Positions 51,838-64,000 of a stretch of 64,000 nt of DNA are shown here, one piece after another. Position 1 is the stretch's first letter; the number at the start of each line of letters is the position of its first letter. The position numbers were made by a program, and so were the translations under genes. The stretch is taken from assembly GCF_019059575.1 (NCBI RefSeq), contig NW_024881530.1:1217501-1281500 (forward strand), given 5' to 3'. Under the pieces are notes generated by a model. That model was not told the origin of the DNA. It saw only the letters and a program-made list of their open reading frames with translations, and ran no database searches. The DNA is from Amphibalanus amphitrite (lineage: Eukaryota > Arthropoda > Thecostraca > Balanomorpha > Balanidae).

Positions 51838-52376
51838 TTCTCTTGCAGATGACGTCGGTAGCTAAAACTTGTGACCCATGACCTGTGATCCTTCCCTCAG
51901 ATAATGTCTGTGACCTGTGGCCTGTGACCCCTCCCTCAGCTGATTTTGGTGACGCGTGAGTGTGACCCGTGACCCCTCCTTGAGATGAAGTCGGTGACAT
52001 GTGACCCATGACCTGTGACCGGTGACCCCTCATTCAGATGATGTCGGTAACCTGTGACCCATGACCTGTGACCCGTCCCTCAGATGATGTCGGTGACCTG
52101 TGACCTGTGATCTATGACCTGTGACCTGTGACCCCTCGCTCAGATGATGTCATGTCGGTGACCCATGACCTGTGACCTGTGACCTGCGGCCCCTCCCTCA
52201 GATGATGTCGGTGACCTCTGACATGTGACCCATGACCTGTGACCCCTCCCTCAGATGATATCGGTGACCTGTGACTCATGACCTGTGACCTGTGACCTGC
52301 GACCCTCCCTCAGATGATGTCGGTGACATGTGACCTGTGACCTGTGACCTGTGACCTACGACCCCTCCCTCAGATG
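51838..52376. repeat. minisatellite of decoy 3' splice sites
   Basis: Eleven imperfect units of about 39-60 bases. Each contains a pyrimidine-rich stretch ending in AG, mostly cctccctcag, then atgatgtcggtg or a variant, then tgacctgtgacc filler. AG ends at 51848, 51900, 51939, 51984, 52037, 52083, 52143, 52201, 52254, 52313 and 52373. The genuine acceptor of exon 2 (AG at 52513) and the first 12 bases of the exon are the same sequence. Filler TGACCTGTGACCT is, on the other strand, AGGTCA-C-AGGTCA, a DR1 nuclear-receptor arrangement. Confidence 0.9.
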
Positions 52377-52513
52377 ATGTCGGTGACCTGTGACCTGTGA
52401 TATGTGACCCGTAATCGCCGTAATCGCCACGCCATATGTGGAAGGCTTTTGGTGTCAATACATACATACATACATGCATACCCATTACCCATGGCCTGTT
52501 ACCCCTCTTTCAG

Positions 52514-52661
52514 ATGATGTCGGTGGCTGTGTCGGTGCTCACGCTGGCGTTCATCTCCCTGGACCGGTGGTACGCCCTGTGCCACCCTCTGCGGTTCCGA
52601 GCCACCGCGCGATGGGCCAAAAAGGCCATCGCTCTCATCTGGATACTCTCGATCATGATTG
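52514..52661 (+). CDS. allatotropin/orexin-type receptor, exon 2
   Basis: Codes for residues 128-176 plus one base (phase 0 start, phase 1 end; acceptor ctctttcag, donor gtgagc). It contains TM3 (MMSVAVSVLTLAFISL), the DRW motif (D144-R145-W146 in place of DRY, as is usual in allatotropin and orexin receptors), ALCHPL in the second intracellular loop, and the start of TM4 (IALIWILSIMI). The preceding acceptor is the last of a series of twelve near-identical AG sites. Confidence 0.78.
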
Positions 52662-53441: not shown

Positions 53442-53546
53442 CGGGTCTTAAGATCAGAGCGTCTGCATATACTATACGGGTCTTAAGATCAGAGCGTCTG
53501 CATATACTATACGGGTCTTAAGATCAGAGCGTCTGCATATACTATA
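53442..53546. repeat. 35-bp tandem repeat, three copies
   Basis: Three identical units beginning cgggtcttaagatc and ending catatactata start at 53442, 53477 and 53512, just 30 bases after the exon 3 donor. Confidence 0.95.
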
Positions 53547-54972
53547 CACGGCTGGGCAGTTGCTAGAGACCGTCTTCTAGAACAACAAATGATAGAATTT
53601 GATTATATTGAAAACAATATCTACAACGAGGCTACTCAAATCAAGAGCTAATTTTTCGACTGCTGCTCAAAACCGTGTTCCAGTATCAACGCGTAAAAGA
53701 TGGCGTCTACATAGTTTTCTTATCTGCTTTCGAGCATAGAACTGCGAAATAGCGCATTTTCCCCTTGTCCTGTCGTCATTCATCACCATTTTAAGGCGGC
53801 GTTGACGTTTGGTCTGACGTGCAGCCTTCACCCTCCCGTACCCTGGTTCATTGTGCAGTAAGATGATGAGGATGATAGCATTCAGTGCATGCTGTTTGTG
53901 GTGACAGCTTTGAGTCAGGGCTTGCTGCAATGGCACAACCACTACAATGCGATATCTTCCTACAGAGCTATACCCCTGTCAGTCTCAGGCATATATAAAC
54001 GTCTTTATGGTTAAACAAAACAAACAGGGACATACTCACAAAATGCACTCACCGAAGCAATGCTCTCTGTTATATTTGTAGGTGTGTGCGTTCACGCCCC
54101 AGCTCAGCTCCCGCACGTTTATTGACTTTATCGCTCGCATTCTGATCATCCTTGCCATACCCTATTCCATAGCTGCGTATGCAACTGGCAACTGAATCCC
54201 TACCCTCTTGGTTCACTCCGCGGCTGCCGCCATCCATTCCCAGGCAGTCAGCATCCACCAGAGATTAATGCCCACTCAGTGATTGATCCCATCGCGGACT
54301 AAGATGAACAGGCTCGCCGGCTCACCCAAAGCGAGCAACGGAGCCCTCTGAATCCAAATGCAATCGCCGTCCCATCAGTGGACTGCGCTCGTTGTCCTGC
54401 TGGTGGTCGGTTTTTACGACGGAAAACGCCGTGAAATTTCACCAGTTTATTGGAATTGGGTGGAAATTGGCTGACCAATTCGTAGTTTGTTTGTGAGAGG
54501 TAATGTGAAACTCTGCCCATTGCTATGAGGTTGCGCCAATTTTAAGACAGACTCGCCTGCACTAATGTTTGCCTACCATTTGTGTTTGTTGAAATGAGCC
54601 AAGATTGTTCATGCATACGTTATGCGCCATGCTTTTTTGGTGTTGGTGCCATGCTGTGCTGAATAGTGCAATAGTTTCTTTCTCTTTAGCAGGAGCTTGA
54701 CTGCAACTGACGTTAAAGTAGTGGCTTTTTGACGGTATATTTCACTGATTAGGCAAGTAGAAAGTTTAGTGCGTAACTGCTTACAGTAACACATCACCTG
54801 TTATCGTCGTAAAGGCAATGTATTATTGAACAGACATACACGCTTACTTTGTGACACTTCGCGCCACTCACCCGTCATTTCTATCTCATCTGTAAAATCT
54901 GTAAAGCCATTTCAACATGTCCATAAATGGTTTGCTTTTTTGCTCCACAATTGCTACAGTTTGTGCCAATCT
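53547..54972. other. intron 3, unique part
   Basis: No exon or element recognised. Confidence 0.45.
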
Positions 54973-54976
54973 TAGC

Positions 54977-56165
54977 CCGCGCCCCACTGGGGGGGGGGGG
55001 GGCTATTTATAGCCCCCCCCCCTCCCGTTTTTCTGCAATAACTTCCAAACCGCTTGATGTATCGACTCCAAACTTTCAGTACCTTCGGCTCCATCAATTT
55101 GACACCTTGTGTCAAAATTTGAACTTCGTAGCTACCATAGGTCGGCCGGAAATGACGTCAGACTGACGTCATGTTCGGCCGATTTCGACGCAAAACATTG
55201 AACCACGGCAATCGCTCCCATGGGCTCAGTTTTTAAGCTAGATCCAATTTCTTTGCATGAGAGGACTCAGAATAGACTGCGCTCTCAAACTGCTATCTCG
55301 GATTTTCGAAATTTTGAAAATTTTGAAAATTTTAAATAATAAAATTCAAAATTTACATTTATACATTTTTTCAAAAAGTTTTTGACTTTTCGAAAAACCC
55401 GGAATATATGTGATAGAATGCGTTATTATGACTAACTCTAGCAAGTTTTAGCTAAATATCTTCAAAAATGGCCAAGTTATACGCATTATTGCAAAAAAGT
55501 AACAATTATTAATTTTTCAAATCAATTTTTCACCACGTATTTGACATCGTACGCCAATATAAATAGCACCATCGTGTTCCTGAGCTCAAACTGCATCCAA
55601 TAGACACCTTTTCTGTTGAAAAATTATAACTTCAAAATTTGACCTTTTTTGACCTGAAAGTGACCTGACCTAAGCTAAATTCGACTCAAAATGACTTCGA
55701 ATGACACAGACGATATCACATTCGAAATCTTTCGCCTAAATGGACCATAAAACATGTGTCATGTGACCGACGCATGATATAATATTTTCGTGACCTGTGA
55801 TGACCTGACCTTGACCTGAAAATCAAAGTACAAGTTTGGCACCCTCAGGGTATCTAGAGCATCTGTTCACGAGTGTGTGAACAAAAAATGAGCCTGATCT
55901 GACTTGTAAGACGGCGGCCAGAGCCCAAAACGTGAACAAGCCAAAATGCTAATAATTTTTAATTTGACCTGACCTGTGACGTCATCGGTGACCTCGAGGT
56001 CAATGAAATTAGGTTTCGCTCGACAGTTTTTCCGGGCTATCAGACGCCGTTTGAATTTTGACGATCAGCCCAGTAGTTTCGGAGTTAGGAGGGGGGGGGG
56101 GCTATGAATATTAGCCCCCCCCCCCCAGTAGGGCGTGTTATACGCAGACCCCAGTGGGGCGCGGG
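54977..56165. mobile_element. AGGTCA hairpin-end element P6 (in intron 3)
   Basis: TTAG duplicated at 54973-54976 and 56166-56169; termini CCCGCGCCCCACTGGGG and (other strand) CCCGCGCCCCACTGGGG, identical. Hairpin core ctatttatag on the left, ctatgaatattag on the right. Internal tgacctgaccttgacctga near 55800. It ends 164 bases before exon 4. Confidence 0.87.
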
Positions 56166-56477: not shown

Positions 56478-57288
56478 GTGAGTGTATGCCACGCTCTGCA
56501 CCAAGAGCTTGGGTGGCCCAAAAAAAACGTTCCCAACTTTGGAGGCCTATATCTCAAATTGGAGTGCAAATAACGAGCCAAAATTTTCATCAAGTTTGCA
56601 TCACTTCTTTGCGCATTGGCATACTAAATTGTAACACTGTACCATCATTTTCAAGCCAGCAATCTTATGTTGAATCAAGTAAGATGTTTTTGCTTTTTTT
56701 GCCGATGTTGAACGGAAGTGATGATTGGCTTGGACGTACTACGTTAGAAAAAGATAGTAAAATAGAACACGTGAATGAAACCAGCACGTATGTTGTTATT
56801 TTAAATATTTTTTTATCCCACTTATGTGCCAAATATTCAAATAATGAGCCAAAATGGTGTTAATGGATGCCATTCGTTTCAACGCTAAGTCCTGTTTCGA
56901 GCAGAAGGAGTGGCACGGTGCATGGGTTACTGCTCATCGCCCTCCCTTCAAGAAGATCAAACAGTAAATCGACCGAATAACGAAAAAAGCTAGCCGGAAT
57001 GTATCACCCTGCGGCCTGAACCATCAATGAGTCTAGCTGTCAGTAGCAGTCATGGCTGCAGGCCGTGGTGCCGAGATGGAAGTGGCCCGTTCACTCACAG
57101 TTTTTAGTAAACATCTGAGCAAAAAAGTAATTTTTACATGGCATGCTAGAAACACGAACCGTTTAAAAAGTAATTGACCGAATAACATAAAAATCATACC
57201 ATTCACGGAAAATATAGGCCGCATTGACTATTGGAAGTTTCAGTGTTGCATCTTTATCACTTTCTGAGAAATATTGATTCAAAGTTGG
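56478..57288. other. intron 4, start
   Basis: AT-rich intron sequence up to the LTR. No TM7-encoding exon recognised. Confidence 0.45.
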
Positions 57289-58383
57289 TGTTGGCGACGC
57301 TTTCGTTCGAATCTCCTTTCATGGTGTGGACTGTATTTAATCGCGCATCGCACAGCATTTGGTTGTTTGGTGACCGAGATCCAGGAGGAAAATGGTTTAA
57401 TTGGAAAATTGGGAAAATAAATGTTATAACCTATCACGTTAGCCTAGTTAAGATACAACTAAATATTGGATACAGGATAGAGCGCCGGATGCCGACGACT
57501 AAGGAACCTCCTTCTTAGGAAGTATATTTGGACCTAATAAAAGAGCGCCGGATACCGACGGCAAAGGAACCCCCTTCTTAGGGCGTATGTTAGGACCTAA
57601 ATAAGAGAGCGCCGGATACCGACGTCAAAGGAACCCCCTTCTTAGGGAGTATGTTAGGGCCTAAAATAAGAGAGCGCCGGATACCGACGACAAAGGAACC
57701 CCCTTCTCTGGGCGTATGTTAGGGCCTAAATATAGAGCGCCGGATGCCGACGACAAAGGAACCCCCTTCTTAGAGAGTTTTAGGAATGTTTTAGGATAAA
57801 AAAGGATAGTCAGTAGACCTGGTCACCGGAACCGATACGCCTGCCGCATCTCCGTCGAATATCTCATCTGTGTGTAGACCGCGCACTGTTTCACTTCTCA
57901 CTCGGGCTTCTCACACACTTTGTCTTCTAGTTCACTATATTTGGCGGACAAGGCAGCGAAACGTACCGGGAAGAGAGCTAGGGGCAGCGCAGTGTCCCCG
58001 TCGAAGTCGAAAGGTGAAGTGAGGGCTGGGGGTGTTTACAACTAGTTTATATACAGCGACAGGGTGTGAAAACAAGACGCGTTGAGGACGGTCAGAGCAC
58101 ACAGAAAAGGCTAAAAATGGCCCGGGCGTCCAGCGCTCCACCCGGAAGACACACAAGCTGGGCGCGCACGTGCGTGCCCCACACAATGACCCGGACCTGG
58201 GCCGGTCCTACGCAAACAGGGAGCCGCCCTGCCGCGCCGGCCGGCCAGCCGGGTCAGAGGGGACGCCAGCGTCCCGCGACCGCGGACGGCGCTCGGCTCG
58301 GCGGCGCGGCAACGGTTCGGCTCAGCAGTGCTGAGTCTCTCGCCCGTACCGCCTTGCATAGGTGCAATTTGTCGGCAACATCA
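57289..58383 (-). repeat. 3' LTR
   Basis: On the minus strand it starts TGATGTTGCCGAC right after a purine tract and ends GTCGCCAACA, giving the standard TG...CA limits, about 1095 bases. The outer end at 57289 matches 63433, the inner edge of the other LTR. The start at 58383 is inferred from the purine tract because the partner LTR is cut by the window. Confidence 0.8.
57481..57795. repeat. five ~64-bp tandem repeats inside the LTR
   Basis: Units begin agcgccgga at 57481, 57543, 57608, 57673 and 57736 and contain aaggaacc.ccttctta and gtatgttagg.cctaa. The same array is in the other LTR (63625-63940). Confidence 0.9.
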
Positions 58384-58393
58384 CTCCCCCCTG
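58384..58393 (-). promoter_or_regulatory. polypurine tract
   Basis: CAGGGGGGAG on the minus strand, directly before the LTR start, as expected for the plus-strand DNA primer of reverse transcription. Confidence 0.7.
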
Positions 58394-58775: not shown

Positions 58776-61700
58776 TCAGTTGTCCACGGGACGCAGCCAT
58801 GAGCGCTGCGTGTTCAGCTCCTCCCGGGCGGCGCTCAGTTCGCGCGCACCACGGACAGCAGGTCCTGGTTGCGCGCCTGGAGCTCCTCTTTGCCCCAGAA
58901 GGTGACCAGACGCTGGGCGATCAGCCGTCCGGCGGAGGTATCCAGCTCGAGCTCGTCCCGGAGTGTGGTGACGACCGCCGCGCGCCTTCTCCACCTCCTT
59001 CAGCGGCACGCAAACCTGCATTGCCAGGTCCTCTGTCTGGGCGACCAGTCGGTTCCTCTTGTGTTGTACGGTACGCAGTCGCCGGCCGGCGTCGTCAGGC
59101 TTGGCGTGTGCTGTCTCCAGCTCCCGTAATGCCTCGTCATTGCTGCCTGTGGGAGAGTCGATCGTCTGCACCGCCGCCTCATAATCCTCTTGCTGCCTCT
59201 GGATGGCCGGCGTCCACTTATCAATGTCCTTCAGGATCTGGTCGAGGCACAGTTTGAACTGCTTGCTCTCGGCCTCTGTGGCCGTCAGCTGCTCCTTGGC
59301 CTGACTGAACCCGGTGAAGATCTGTGTGGGCGTCATACCCTGCCGCAGGAGCCGGCTGACGGCGGCGGGGGCGGCGGACGGTGACGTGGCCTCCACCGCC
59401 TCGTCTGAAAGGCTACCTTTGCGGGTGATTGCCTGCAGCTGCTCCTCGTACGTCTCCAGCCGGTCACGCAGCTGGAGGATCACCTTGTCGCGCTCCACCA
59501 GGTACTGGCCGTGCTGGGTGTGCGTCTCGTCCAGATGCACCTCCAGCTGGCTTTGCTGCTCGCTGGCCGAGCTCAGCAGTGACCGCAGCTCGTCCACCGA
59601 GCGCAGCATCTCATTCGACCTGGCCTCCACCTTCTCAACGCCCTCTTTGTAGGGCTGCGCCAGCCGCTCCTGTGGCCGCAGCTGCTGTCGATAGTTTTCT
59701 TCCTGCTCGATCTCGGCCTCATGCTGCAGCTGGGGCTTCTCCACCAGTTCGGTGAGCCGCTGCTCCAGGTCGGCCGCCTGCTGTGTCAGCCGTTCTTTTT
59801 CCGCCTGCTCCGTCCCCAGCTGGTCCATCTTGTTAGCAAGGTCGGCCTGCAGCTGGAGGATCCGCGAGCTGTGCAGGCGGCGCAGCGTGGACAGCTCCTC
59901 TGCTTGCGACTTCAGCCTCTCCAGCAGCAGGGACATCTGCTTCTCCAACACCTCCTTCTCACTCGCCATCTTCCTCTCTCTGTACTGGAAACTGCTCTCC
60001 TTGGCGGCAATTTCCCCCACCTGTGCCAGCGCCCGACACTTGGCCGCATGAGCTGCAGCCAGTTCAGATCCCCGGTCTTCAAGCTCAGCCGTCAGCCGGG
60101 CCACCCCAGCAGCGCGCCGCTCCAGCTGCTGTACCAGGCTCGCCTTGTCTGAGAGGACCTGGTCGCGCTCCCGACAGGCGGCCAGCTCAGCGGCCAACGC
60201 CCTGGTGAGGCCGGCATCTGCCTTCCTGTAGTCTGCGGTGGCCGTGGTCCGCTGCTCCTGGAGTCTGGCAGCTGCCTGCTGCTGCTCCTCCAACTGGCTG
60301 GACTGCTTCTGCAACTCCTGCTGGGCCTCCTGCAACTGCTGGCCCAGCTCAAACTCATTCTGCTCTCTGAGTGCGTCTGCTGAGACAGCAGCGACCGATA
60401 CATGTCTCTCGGCGACGTAGGAGTTGATGATGACCTTGTACTTCCCTGCGACCTCTGGAAGCTTCTCGAGCTTTCTCTCCGTTGCCTGTAGTCGCTGAAT
60501 AGCCTGTCGCTTGTTGTTGGGAACTGTAGGACTTGTCTCCTTCCACAGCAGACCGGTCTCGTATCGCTCTCCACCTTTGGTCGTGTTTCTTTCCAGCATC
60601 TGGAGTGCTTTCTTATCCATCTCCGATCGTGACGTCGTTTCACTGTACTTTGTTCCAGCTGCTTCTGCAGACCACCATTCGTTGACGGCAGCGCACAGCT
60701 CCACTTCGCTGTCACTCGATTGACGTCTCAGAAACATGACCCGGCGCCTGCTGCTGGGCACGATGTCAGACACGCAGCCCGTCAGGGTCCACCCTAGGTC
60801 TGTCTTCACAGCGGCCGGTTGATTCGGACGTCCCACACGCACCTCCTTCTGCAGCACTGCTTCAAGGACGTTTGCACCGATCAACAGCTTCACCTGCCCG
60901 CCATTATATTGCGGGAACTCCAGATCACGAAGGTGTTCAAACCTCTGAAGCTGACTCTTCGTCATTGAAGTCGCAGTCACATTCAGCGCTGGCACAGACC
61001 ACACTTCAGGAATGTTAATGCACTTCTTTGCCCCTGTGCCAAGGGGGCTGATCTTCAGTTTCACTCTCTCGGACGGACGCTGAGTGCCACTGGTCTCCAC
61101 GTTTTGTATGCAGAGCGGGTGTCGCTCCCCGGCAACGCCCAGCTCCTCCAGAACATCCTCACGACACAGTGATGTCTGAGCTCCAGCATCCAGGAGTGCC
61201 AGAACGTCTGTCGAACCACGGGGCCCGTGAACCCGCACAGCAACAATCTGTAGCAGTGTGTCTGTGTCCGTTTTTACCGAGGCCGCTACAAACGGCTGGT
61301 TCCCGGAACTACCTTCAGCTGAAGATTCAGGCGCTCCCGTGGTTGTCCCTGCTGACGACTGATCCCTCCTCGAGTTGCTCTGATCGGTTCCTGACCGACT
61401 TGATCCGCGGTGGAGAAGCGAATGGTGCGTGAGCTTGCATCCCTTCACATTGCACCGCCGAGACACTTTGCAGCTTCTGCTCCAGTGGCCCTTCTTGAGG
61501 CATGAAAAGCAAAGACCTTCTTCATAGGCAACAGCGCTTCTTGCGTCTGGGGTCTTGGCCTTGAATTCTGAGCAGTCGCTCAGCCTGTGGTTACTGCTGC
61601 ACACCACGCACACTGGCAGAGAGCGGGCCTCTGGTTCGGTTTCACCATTAGCTCCTGTCGCCAGCGCTGTTCGCCGAACAGGGCCGTCCCTTGAAGCAAC

Positions 61701-63350
61701 TGTTGCACGTTTCCGTTCCGATGTTGAAGTCCCGGATTGGACAGCAGAGAAGCTCAGGATGCTGACTTGGACTTGGAGCCACTCGGTGAACGTCTCCAGA
61801 GTCGGTCGCGTCGGTCGCAGCCGGAACACTTCACGGCCCCACTCTCGGGCTAGCTCGCTCGGCAGCTTTTCCACCACTCTTCTCAAGTTTTCACTGCTTG
61901 ACAGGTCACTCGCATAGCCGAGATTTCGCAGGACGGTGACTGTGTTGTGGACGACCGCATAAAACTTCTCCATCGCTGGGAGGTCCATTAGTGACGGTGG
62001 CGAGGTCATGAACACATTTCGCAGGTGGGCCTGGATGATGTCTTCCTCTCGTCCGAACCTATCTTGCAAGGTTTTCAAGGCCTCGTGATACAAGTCACCG
62101 TTGAATAACATGCCGTCAATGGCCTGGGCCGCGGGCCCTTCCACCGCGTTTTGAAGGTGAGCCATGCGCTCAGCATCCGACAGGGACGGCTGATCATGCA
62201 CCAAGGCTTTGAAAAGACCAATCCAGCGCGGCCACTCACGTGCATTTCCACGGAACGTTGGCAGAGTCAGTCGCGGTATGCTCTTTACGAACGCTGATGG
62301 TCCTGCCAGGTCATTCCGTCGGGATGAGGCCGGCGGTGCGATCCAGCTGGCACGAGCCAGTCCGTCATTCTTGTGCACCCCATTCTCACCTTGAGGAACA
62401 CCGACAGCTCTGGGTGATGACGAGATGCAGCGGGAAACTTCGCCACCATTGGATGCCGGCCGCTGCTCACCTGACGTATCACGGACGGCTCTCGATATAT
62501 CGCATTGCTCAGGCTCCACCTCCACTGGGATTTCGTCATCAAAGTCGTTTCTCCGCTCCCATTCAAGGTCATTTTCTGCAGCCCTCAGAAGTCTTGCCCT
62601 CTGCTGCGCTCGTTCCACCTCCTCTTCTAACTCCTTTTCCTCCATCATCCTCTTCTCTTCTTCCATCCTTTCTTCTTCTCTTCTCCTCTGAGCTGTGCTT
62701 TCTTCCTCCTGTTTTCTCAGCTGCCTTTCTCTGTCTTGCCTGGCTTTCAAATGCTTCAGCTCCAGGCTTTTCATCTCTGCCGTTATTACAGCTTCCCTGG
62801 ACGCCGCTCTGGAAACTCCTGAAACACGGGATCCATTCACTCTACTCCCCCCGTGATGCAACTTTGATGGTGGTGGTCTGTCATCTGCTTGCGACGCCGC
62901 GCAGCAGCTCACTGGTCGGTGCGTAGTCGCCTCTTCAATTCTTTTCACCGTCTCGGCGTGCCGTGCCGTCAGTCGGGTGGCGTACTCTTCCGCTTCTTCC
63001 AGTTCGCAGACCTCCTGCACCTTCTCAACATAGGTGTCATTGGCCTCCATGAAACCATCCAGTGTCGCATTCAGGGTTTCGAGCCGCTTCTTTAGTTCTT
63101 CCTCGCTAGCTCGGCGCGCGATCTGAGCCTCCGCCGTGTTACAGGCACGAGTAAACGCGGCGGCCTTGCGCCCGCGCTGAAGTTTCAGGTGCTTCAACAC
63201 GCATGCAGTGTCTCCAGCTTCCTCGCCGGCAGTGTCCTGACTCACCGTCACCGTCTCTGTGTTCTCCGCCTGAGTCGAATCTTCCATCATCGGAATTTTC
63301 TTCTCGATCCGACTGGCACACACGAGGCACAGCTTGTAACCTACAATCAA
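58776..63350 (-). CDS. BEL/Pao gag-protease fused to TPR/Megator-like coiled coil
   Basis: An uninterrupted 1524-codon frame. Residues ~60-290: charged coiled coil. ~360-530: BEL/Pao gag domain of the DUF1759 type (LPTFRGNAREWPRWIGLF...). ~580-650: Cys/His cluster with the zinc knuckle CFSCLKKGHWSRSC. ~715-850: aspartic-protease-like domain (LALLDAGAQTSLC; the catalytic Asp followed by Ala-Gly, as in other BEL proteases). ~905-975: start of BEL pol (ERYETGLLWK). From ~980 the protein becomes a long coiled coil that matches the N-terminal region of nucleoporin TPR/Megator: YRERKMASEKEVLEKQ, EARSNEMLRSVDELRSLL, RKGSLSDEAVEATSPSAA, RLLRQGMTPTQ, then AIQRQQEDYE. About 45 codons near the end (58985-58845) read in a shifted frame. 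The family normally has RT, RNase H and integrase here; all are missing. I infer that a Gag polyprotein with a host-derived tail is made. Confidence 0.82.
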   Translation of the reverse strand: MIVGYKLCLVCASRIEKKIPMMEDSTQAENTETVTVSQDTAGEEAGDTACVLKHLKLQRGRKAAAFTRACNTAEAQIARRASEEELKKRLETLNATLDGFMEANDTYVEKVQEVCELEEAEEYATRLTARHAETVKRIEEATTHRPVSCCAASQADDRPPPSKLHHGGSRVNGSRVSGVSRAASREAVITAEMKSLELKHLKARQDRERQLRKQEEESTAQRRREEERMEEEKRMMEEKELEEEVERAQQRARLLRAAENDLEWERRNDFDDEIPVEVEPEQCDISRAVRDTSGEQRPASNGGEVSRCISSSPRAVGVPQGENGVHKNDGLARASWIAPPASSRRNDLAGPSAFVKSIPRLTLPTFRGNAREWPRWIGLFKALVHDQPSLSDAERMAHLQNAVEGPAAQAIDGMLFNGDLYHEALKTLQDRFGREEDIIQAHLRNVFMTSPPSLMDLPAMEKFYAVVHNTVTVLRNLGYASDLSSSENLRRVVEKLPSELAREWGREVFRLRPTRPTLETFTEWLQVQVSILSFSAVQSGTSTSERKRATVASRDGPVRRTALATGANGETEPEARSLPVCVVCSSNHRLSDCSEFKAKTPDARSAVAYEEGLCFSCLKKGHWSRSCKVSRRCNVKGCKLTHHSLLHRGSSRSGTDQSNSRRDQSSAGTTTGAPESSAEGSSGNQPFVAASVKTDTDTLLQIVAVRVHGPRGSTDVLALLDAGAQTSLCREDVLEELGVAGERHPLCIQNVETSGTQRPSERVKLKISPLGTGAKKCINIPEVWSVPALNVTATSMTKSQLQRFEHLRDLEFPQYNGGQVKLLIGANVLEAVLQKEVRVGRPNQPAAVKTDLGWTLTGCVSDIVPSSRRRVMFLRRQSSDSEVELCAAVNEWWSAEAAGTKYSETTSRSEMDKKALQMLERNTTKGGERYETGLLWKETSPTVPNNKRQAIQRLQATERKLEKLPEVAGKYKVIINSYVAERHVSVAAVSADALREQNEFELGQQLQEAQQELQKQSSQLEEQQQAAARLQEQRTTATADYRKADAGLTRALAAELAACRERDQVLSDKASLVQQLERRAAGVARLTAELEDRGSELAAAHAAKCRALAQVGEIAAKESSFQYRERKMASEKEVLEKQMSLLLERLKSQAEELSTLRRLHSSRILQLQADLANKMDQLGTEQAEKERLTQQAADLEQRLTELVEKPQLQHEAEIEQEENYRQQLRPQERLAQPYKEGVEKVEARSNEMLRSVDELRSLLSSASEQQSQLEVHLDETHTQHGQYLVERDKVILQLRDRLETYEEQLQAITRKGSLSDEAVEATSPSAAPAAVSRLLRQGMTPTQIFTGFSQAKEQLTATEAESKQFKLCLDQILKDIDKWTPAIQRQQEDYEAAVQTIDSPTGSNDEALRELETAHAKPDDAGRRLRTVQHKRNRLVAQTEDLAMQVCVPLKEVEKARGGRHHTPGRARAGYLRRTADRPASGHLLGQRGAPGAQPGPAVRGARELSAAREELNTQRSWLRPVDN

Positions 63351-63432: not shown

Positions 63433-64000
63433 TGTTGGCGACGCTTTCGTTCGAATCTCCTTTCATGGTGTGGACTGTATTTAATCGCGCATCGCACAGC
63501 ATTTGGTTGTTTGGTGACCGAGATCCAGGAGGAAAATGGTTTAATTGGAAAATTGGGAAAATAAATGTTATAACCTATCACGTTAGCCTAGTTAAGATAC
63601 AACTAAATATTGGATACAGGATAGAGCGCCGGATGCCGACGACTAAGGAACCTCCTTCTTAGGAAGTATATTTGGACCTAATAAAAGAGCGCCGGATACC
63701 GACGGCAAAGGAACCCCCTTCTTAGGGCGTATGTTAGGACCTAAATAAGAGAGCGCCGGATACCGACGTCAAAGGAACCCCCTTCTTAGGGAGTATGTTA
63801 GGGCCTAAAATAAGAGAGCGCCGGATACCGACGACAAAGGAACCCCCTTCTCTGGGCGTATGTTAGGGCCTAAATATAGAGCGCCGGATGCCGACGACAA
63901 AGGAACCCCCTTCTTAGAGAGTTTTAGGAATGTTTTAGGATAAAAAAGGATAGTCAGTAGACCTGGTCACCGGAACCGATACGCCTGCCGCATCTCCGTC
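63433..64000 (-). repeat. 5' LTR, truncated by window end
   Basis: Identical by eye to 57289-57856. About 527 further bases are expected beyond the window, followed by a short target duplication that would fix the insertion site. Confidence 0.9.

Follow-up and report, generated by a model that had tools for sequence, protein, structure and literature searches.

How does a retrotransposon come to carry part of a nuclear-pore protein? The question is raised by a 64,000-nucleotide stretch of the genome of the barnacle Amphibalanus amphitrite (assembly GCF_019059575.1, contig NW_024881530.1, C33:1217501-1281500; hereafter the window), in which a long terminal repeat (LTR) retrotransposon of the BEL/Pao group has a segment of the nucleoporin TPR in the same reading frame as its gag. 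A first-pass annotation of the window, made from the letters alone, had proposed that a spliced host messenger RNA (mRNA) replaced pol. We find that a spliced host RNA was indeed captured and that pol was lost, but the exons of the captured RNA are permuted, which favors a back-spliced circle over a linear mRNA. Judged from sequence, it is very likely that a BEL/Pao element captured a circular RNA of TPR exons 2–10, lost pol, and was amplified by enzymes acting in trans.

A BEL/Pao element that carries a segment of TPR

The element lies on the minus strand between two LTRs of 1,092 bp each (57289–58380 and 63433–64524, the second read past the end of the window), which have TG...CA ends and differ at no position, and both flanks of the element carry GTTGG, a 5-bp target duplication. 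The matching LTRs described in the first-pass annotation are thus real, as is the single frame from gag to TPR, an open reading frame (ORF) of 1,524 amino acids (minus strand, 58776–63350) that runs through gag, protease, a pol stub, TPR, and a C-terminal tail and in which the sequence blocks quoted earlier are present. The gag, zinc knuckle, and protease assigned to this frame fare differently: the gag domain DUF1759 stands above the Pfam cut-off (E = 1.1e-15), whereas the zinc knuckle and aspartyl protease matches both fall below it, in a region that aligns to BEL/Pao proteins. Residues 561–983 align along their whole length to BEL/Pao polyproteins such as P0021, and P0027 is 70% identical to the gag-pol part over 281 residues. 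A protein search for the nearest relatives returned 49 matches at E ≤ 0.001; one is a TPR chimera (P0008), and many others carry PF03564, PF05380, PF17921, and PF18701, which we take to be marks of BEL/Pao polyproteins.

The frame follows pol up to ...INSYVAERH, beyond which seven aligned relatives run into reverse transcriptase (RT); at this break P0021 and P0027 read ARKLT and then LPHHAVTNPNKP. Because those seven relatives continue into RT at the break, the idea that the segment is ordinary BEL pol was ruled out. In agreement with the earlier annotation, neither the 1,524-residue ORF nor six other ORFs of the element give a Pfam family match to RT, RNase H, or integrase. The element is a non-autonomous BEL/Pao derivative and not an autonomous member of the group. 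A stretch resembling a primer-binding site lies near the 5' LTR, with no transfer RNA matched to it, and the CAGGGGGGAGTGA stretch beside the 3' LTR presumably functions as a polypurine tract. In a metagenome protein that is 65% identical to the gag-pol part, P0018, gag, protease, and a pol stub are followed by a C-terminal pol domain, and an RT domain is not listed; this is perhaps another pol-deleted BEL/Pao element.

The assignment of the next part to TPR, which had been made from the order of short blocks, is borne out by a profile search, as the Pfam family Nucleoprot-TPR (PF25481) is matched above its cut-off by the whole ORF (E = 1.3e-14) and by the segment alone (E = 8.8e-16); a second TPR match, PF25785, is below the cut-off (E = 8.8e-5). 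The order itself is seen in a single comparison with a vertebrate (bird) TPR, P0010, to which the segment aligns in an ordered, co-linear manner over 467 alignment columns with 27% identity (E = 1e-47). TPR matches come also from a Pollicipes protein, and seven protein matches to the element with 85–94% identity are all named Amphibalanus amphitrite. Generic coiled-coil similarity was ruled out by the naming of TPR in Pfam together with the ordered alignments, and the one match of the segment in the PDB, a surface protein at E = 0.27, was taken as chance. The later TPR region PF07926 is not in the window and is matched only at the host TPR loci on contigs C37 and C204. From these alignments, the element carries a fragment of TPR that corresponds to exons 2–10.

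The exon order points to a circular template

The host TPR gene is found on the minus strand of C37 and of C204; the two loci differ at 26 bases over exons 2–10 (1,727 bases; synonymous divergence, dS, 0.044) and are probably alleles. A single copy of each of exons 2–10 is present in the 40 kb examined on either contig. AG and GT bound all of them in C204, and likewise in C37 except for one extra base before exon 8. In the element, the internal exon joints are spliced and fused without introns, as had been claimed, and exons 2–9 are each 81–89% identical to those of the host; overall, the elements and the host locus differ by about 14% in sequence. Their order, however, is not that of the gene: read 5' to 3', the element has the last 49 bases of exon 10, then exon 2 from its first base, exons 3–9, and the beginning of exon 10. 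The breakpoint that had been placed near 60400 does lie there; more exactly, the exon 10 tail occupies 60413–60365 in another frame, and TPR in its own frame starts at 60364. This change of frame at the exon 10–exon 2 joint fits the phases of the host exons, as exon 10 ends on a codon border and exon 2 starts one base into a codon.

Since exon 10 and exon 2 are joined at their exact splice borders, the joint is that of a back-splice, which makes a back-spliced circular RNA, and not a linear mRNA, the most likely template. The captured part ends about 55 bases before its own starting point, which amounts to almost a full turn of a circle of 1,727 nt, with no exon repeated. The segment has the features of a circular-RNA retrocopy, with exons permuted at splice sites, without introns, and without a genomic tandem duplication (in the present assembly, as a lower bound), and those of a host-gene-transducing LTR element, with host coding sequence inside an element that has multiplied.

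A linear TPR mRNA could also have been captured, with an extra template switch putting the end of exon 10 before exon 2. Chimeric LTR elements are known to arise by template switching, according to passages of a review (PMC13317346), and a 75-bp gap in exon 10 of the element, bracketed by two GAGCTGAGC repeats in the host exon and present in all seven copies compared, points to at least one slip of the polymerase in the TPR segment. Yet the joint is exact at both splice borders, and two independent random breaks would have had to fall on exon borders by chance; we consider this route highly improbable.

A recently mobile family of copies

We searched the assembly (807.55 Mb) with the TPR part and scored 80 of 97 candidates, so that all counts are lower bounds. 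The search gave 43 matching stretches, which group as at least 17 element loci plus the two host loci. Further copies with a common breakpoint had been anticipated in the first-pass annotation, and the pol–exon 10–exon 2 junction is indeed common to all 17 loci found, which lie on different contigs. In seven of the eight further copies (out of 16) that were examined at their ends, as in the window copy, we see exact 5-bp target duplications, all of them different; C201 has a low-complexity match, AAAAAC, in place of an exact 5-bp duplication. Leaving gap columns aside, the LTR pairs have no mismatches in four of these eight (C1855, C154, C251, and C204), again as in the window copy, 2–3 mismatches in C135, C15, and C211, and 11 in C201. 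The exact duplications and mismatch-free LTR pairs indicate that the element has been copied recently, by an integrase encoded elsewhere. The family is recently mobile, amplified, and non-autonomous, and is more than a single odd copy.

These copies bear on whether a host gene was simply mis-assembled beside a retrotransposon. No evidence for an assembly artefact was found in the assembly, where the junction occurs at 17 loci on different contigs with differing target duplications. In addition, the proteins P0002 and P0005, which contain the junction, are encoded on contigs of 76,995 and 558,162 bp, sizes not found among the 17 contigs, and probably come from another assembly; the contigs of P0001 and P0003 are as long as C201 and C780, and these two proteins are not independent. 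The probability that we assign to an artefact is negligible.

Most copies keep a long frame. Frames of at least 1,505 amino acids are present in 14 of the 17 loci, and 11 of the 17 have a stop-free frame of at least 1,511 amino acids up to a common C-terminus (...RPVDN; RPMDN in C154). TPR is broken in C65 and C441 and cut short in C386, whose frame ends about 17 residues early; C114 and C441 have frameshifts in the TPR part, and the shorter frames of C780 and C431 (1,168 and 739 amino acids) have a TPR part that still reaches the end. The break in C65 is an insertion of about 470 bp (C65:866640-867109) beside an A-rich stretch, around the exon 6–7 border of the TPR part, and this is possibly a short retroposed element. 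Judged from the translations, two compensating frameshifts are present in exons 9–10 at 7 of the 17 loci, including the window copy.

About five 63-bp tandem units lie inside each LTR of the window copy (57479–57785 and 63623–63929). The length of the LTR differs among copies, from 1,084 to 1,159 bp, and the two LTRs of C201 are unequal in length; this variation has perhaps come about through the number of 63-bp units.

Several public entries for A. amphitrite are named 'nucleoprotein TPR', and P0001, P0002, P0003, and P0005 have the pol-TPR junction of the element. By this junction, at least these four are ORFs of the BEL/Pao-TPR element. P0007 and P0008 appear to be gene models that fuse TPR sequence with an AMP-binding domain and a sulfotransferase-type (PF00685) domain, respectively.

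A proposed course of events and its weak points

We propose that a circular RNA formed by back-splicing of TPR exons 2–10 would have been co-packaged by a barnacle BEL/Pao element. During reverse transcription, the polymerase would have left the element RNA near the 3' end of pol, rounded the circle almost once, from exon 10 back to exon 2, over the back-splice joint, and into the end of exon 10, and then rejoined the element RNA near the start of pol. In this way the element would have lost RT, RNase H, and integrase, and its frame would have become gag–protease–pol stub–TPR. The chimera, keeping its own LTRs and Gag, would then have been moved by enzymes in trans and amplified, with Gag made in cis building the particles and a related BEL/Pao element supplying RT and integrase. 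Such a helper is implied by the recent insertions of an element that has no pol.

Several points weigh against this account. The circular template, the two template switches, and the helper acting in trans are all deduced from the genomic sequence. As to the helper, the closest full-length protein named for A. amphitrite, P0021, is 57% identical over the gag-pol part. Complementarity of the flanking introns is a feature of many, not all, genes that give circular RNAs, and introns 1 and 10 of TPR have no significant complementarity (best E = 0.89); this neither proves nor excludes circularization. As to a single capture, a quick tree (FastTree) places the host beside copy C15 (support 0.95), inside the copies and not outside them. 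We read this position as an effect of the long host branch, and the tree by itself is no proof of a single capture; it is the shared junction that argues for one.

The identical junction would also come from a linear RNA whose exons were scrambled or repeated, if trans-splicing or a former tandem duplication of exons 2–10 had already made the exon 10–exon 2 joint in the template. Such a template would yield the same sequence as a circle. The exons are single in the 40 kb of C37 and of C204, though, and within this stretch and the genome search (a lower bound) we found no tandem exon duplication and no further TPR exon copies beyond C37, C204, and the 17 elements. The captured part also stops just short of one turn without repeating an exon. 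A linear RNA of this kind seems to us unlikely, and we retain the back-spliced circle as the template.

Selection and the possible role of the TPR part

Compared with host TPR over 454 codons, the window copy has a dS of 0.40, a nonsynonymous divergence (dN) of 0.096, and a ratio of the two (w) of 0.24. The ratio against the host is 0.21–0.28 in 16 of the 17 copies; the value of 0.57 in C65 results from its insertion, which misaligns the TPR part, and this copy was excluded from the rate counts. Among the remaining 16 copies (120 pairs), the summed dN/dS of the TPR part is 0.60. Fixed differences from the host number 72 synonymous and 49 nonsynonymous, against 106.5 and 229.5 among the copies, where each rarer codon was counted against the commonest (Fisher p = 1.3e-7, on rounded counts). 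When polarized by the Pollicipes protein P0009, the 43 fixed amino-acid differences comprise 29 changes in the element, 5 in the host, and 9 that are undecided.

Broken down by part across the 16 copies, w is 0.33 from the second half of gag to protease, 0.73 in the pol stub, 0.41 in the first half of TPR, and 0.88 in the second. Bootstrap intervals (30 of the 120 pairs, 60 resamplings) are 0.24–0.49 for gag-protease, 0.46–1.16 for the pol stub, and 0.43–0.80 for the whole of TPR, and because they overlap, the values for TPR and the pol stub cannot be clearly told apart. The value of 0.33 for gag-protease shows constraint, as one would expect of a Gag that serves the element. Neutral substitutions on the tips, for whose lengths alone the FastTree topology was used, would be expected to bring stops to about 9.9 of the 16 TPR parts, whereas the codon alignment contains none, or one is observed if a TAG of C114 that is absent from this alignment is counted; the count leaves out frameshifts. 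We read these sequence data as showing that Gag is clearly constrained, that the first half of TPR is constrained to some extent, and that stops are selected against, which falls short of a proof of function.

The captured TPR segment may be a mere passenger, may promote oligomerization of Gag, or may direct particles to the pore. As a passenger, it would be intact through the youth of the copies, with Gag acting in cis and pol in trans, and this would be compatible with a circular origin. The second half of TPR, with its w near that of the pol stub and far above that of gag-protease, fits a passenger, as do the compensating frameshifts in exons 9–10 of the window copy and six others, the broken or shortened TPR of C65, C114, C441, and C386, and an interval for the whole of TPR that overlaps that of the pol stub and, slightly, that of gag-protease. 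The low w of the first half does not, and neither does the near lack of stops, nor the fact that fixed differences from the host are much richer in synonymous changes than those among copies, although host constraint contributes to the fixed differences. On balance, we put the passenger reading only a little below an even chance. It is possible, though rather doubtful, that the TPR coding part is instead under selection, in which case the Gag-TPR fusion would give the helper-dependent particles a coiled-coil oligomerizer or a nuclear-basket anchor. The least certain of our proposals is that the element gains from its TPR part, for instance through oligomerization of Gag or delivery of particles to the nuclear pore.

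Residues 436–606 of TPR are reported in a review to suffice for localization to the pore (PMC6640030), and L458 and M489 are reported to be required for binding to Nup153 (PMC3258255). By the P0010 alignment, about three quarters of the region corresponding to vertebrate 436–606, counted from its start, are present in the element, and the end of this covered region is frame-scrambled in the window copy. With the bird numbering taken as human, the element has a leucine at 489 and an asparagine at 458, the asparagine being shared by the host. Contact between Gag and the pore is a known theme, as the Gag proteins of Ty3 and Tf1 are reported to bind nucleoporins (PMC5918913).

Positions of all features of the element are collected in Table 1. 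Elsewhere in the window there is a minisatellite of 39–60-bp units (GTGACCTGTGACC...) at 51866–52524, and three exact 35-bp tandem copies lie at 53442–53547. Two palindromic stretches of G-runs and C-runs (54989–55026 and 56088–56126), 1.1 kb apart, match each other in both orientations and are possibly the ends of another mobile element.

Table 1 Features of the BEL/Pao-TPR element, in positions of the window.
Feature	Position	Strand	Remark
Target-site duplication GTTGG, left copy	57284..57288	.	right copy 64525–64529, beyond window
3' LTR, 1,092 bp, about 5 tandem 63-bp units within	57289..58380	-	
Polypurine-tract-like stretch CAGGGGGGAGTGA adjoining 3' LTR	58381..58393	-	from sequence
In-frame C-terminal tail and stop; resembles BEL pol C-terminus	58776..58814	-	by eye, unscored
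Right recombination junction	near 58815	-	by eye
Frame gag–protease–pol stub–TPR–tail, 1,524 amino acids	58776..63350	-	
TPR exon 10, initial part; lacks 75 nt between the two GAGCTGAGC repeats seen in the host	58815..58924	-	right limit by eye
TPR exon 9	58925..59015	-	81/91 aligned bases identical to host
TPR exon 8	59016..59177	-	131/162 identical to host
TPR exon 7	59178..59416	-	204/233 identical to host
TPR exon 6	59417..59644	-	199/228 identical to host
TPR exon 5	59645..59819	-	152/175 identical to host
TPR exon 4	59820..59979	-	135/160 identical to host
TPR exon 3	59980..60201	-	188/222 identical to host
TPR exon 2	60202..60364	-	145/163 identical to host
Back-splice junction, exon 10 end (60365) to exon 2 start (60364)	60364..60365	-	0 bases gained or lost
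TPR exon 10, last 49 bases, out of TPR frame	60365..60413	-	
BEL/Pao pol N-terminal stub; relatives run on into RT	60414..60738	-	limits approximate
Aspartyl protease, LLDAGAQTSL	61053..61238	-	sub-threshold Pfam match
Zinc knuckle	61467..61514	-	sub-threshold Pfam match
Gag domain DUF1759	61830..62255	-	Pfam
5' LTR, part inside window	63433..64000	-	extends to 64524

Known systems and significance

In acutely transforming retroviruses, host genes have been captured in place of replication genes and fused to Gag, and a helper is required. Those are vertebrate viruses and linear mRNAs, whereas here the carrier is an intracellular BEL/Pao element and the cargo a structural protein of the pore. 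The maize element Bs1 is said to lack pol and to move in trans. It is an LTR element that has transduced host coding sequence of several genes, as described in passages of PMC5408686 and PMC13317346, and in carrying transduced host coding sequence the barnacle element is like it. Bs1, however, is a plant element for which these passages mention no circular-RNA template, while here one permuted TPR segment is found at 17 loci in a crustacean BEL/Pao element.

Two animal phenomena come close. In LTR-mediated retroposition (Tan et al. 2016, as cited in the papers listed below), an LTR element makes a retrocopy of host mRNA, and LTR sequence flanks this copy; those cases are described as retrocopies, whereas here the capture lies within a complete LTR element that went on moving. 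Pseudogenes derived from circular RNAs (Dong et al. 2016, likewise) have non-collinear exons from a reverse-transcribed circle, with involvement of LTRs suggested for mouse; those remain pseudogenes, whereas here the copy of the circle is in frame with gag and has been multiplied within a mobile element. Bs1 transduction, LTR-mediated retroposition, and circular-RNA pseudogenes near LTRs are treated in passages of PMC5408686, PMC8232201, PMC13317346, PMC12747553, and PMC8465862. LTR elements with additional or captured ORFs have also been described in bdelloid rotifers (PMC5408684) and in rice and sorghum (PMC3726574); these resemble the barnacle element in their captured coding sequence, one of them being an animal case, and their titles and the opening lines of their abstracts mention neither circular RNA nor TPR. 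In searches of the open-licence PMC literature, which list at most 20 papers each, we found no report of an LTR element with a circular-RNA copy or of a capture of TPR. Gene capture by LTR elements and pseudogenes from circular RNAs are thus each known, and their combination is new as far as searches of that literature reach.

In this datable case, a host circular RNA appears to have been reverse transcribed by an LTR retrotransposon, which then spread the copy as a part of itself. If this is true, circular RNAs would be one more kind of template for the making of new genes by mobile elements, and the exact back-splice joint is a mark that can be searched for in any genome. In practical terms, several public 'nucleoprotein TPR' entries of A. 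amphitrite belong to the element. Whether carrying a nuclear-pore protein benefits a retroelement becomes testable, and if the Gag-TPR reading holds, this would be a retrotransposon that exploits a piece of the pore to reach the nucleus.

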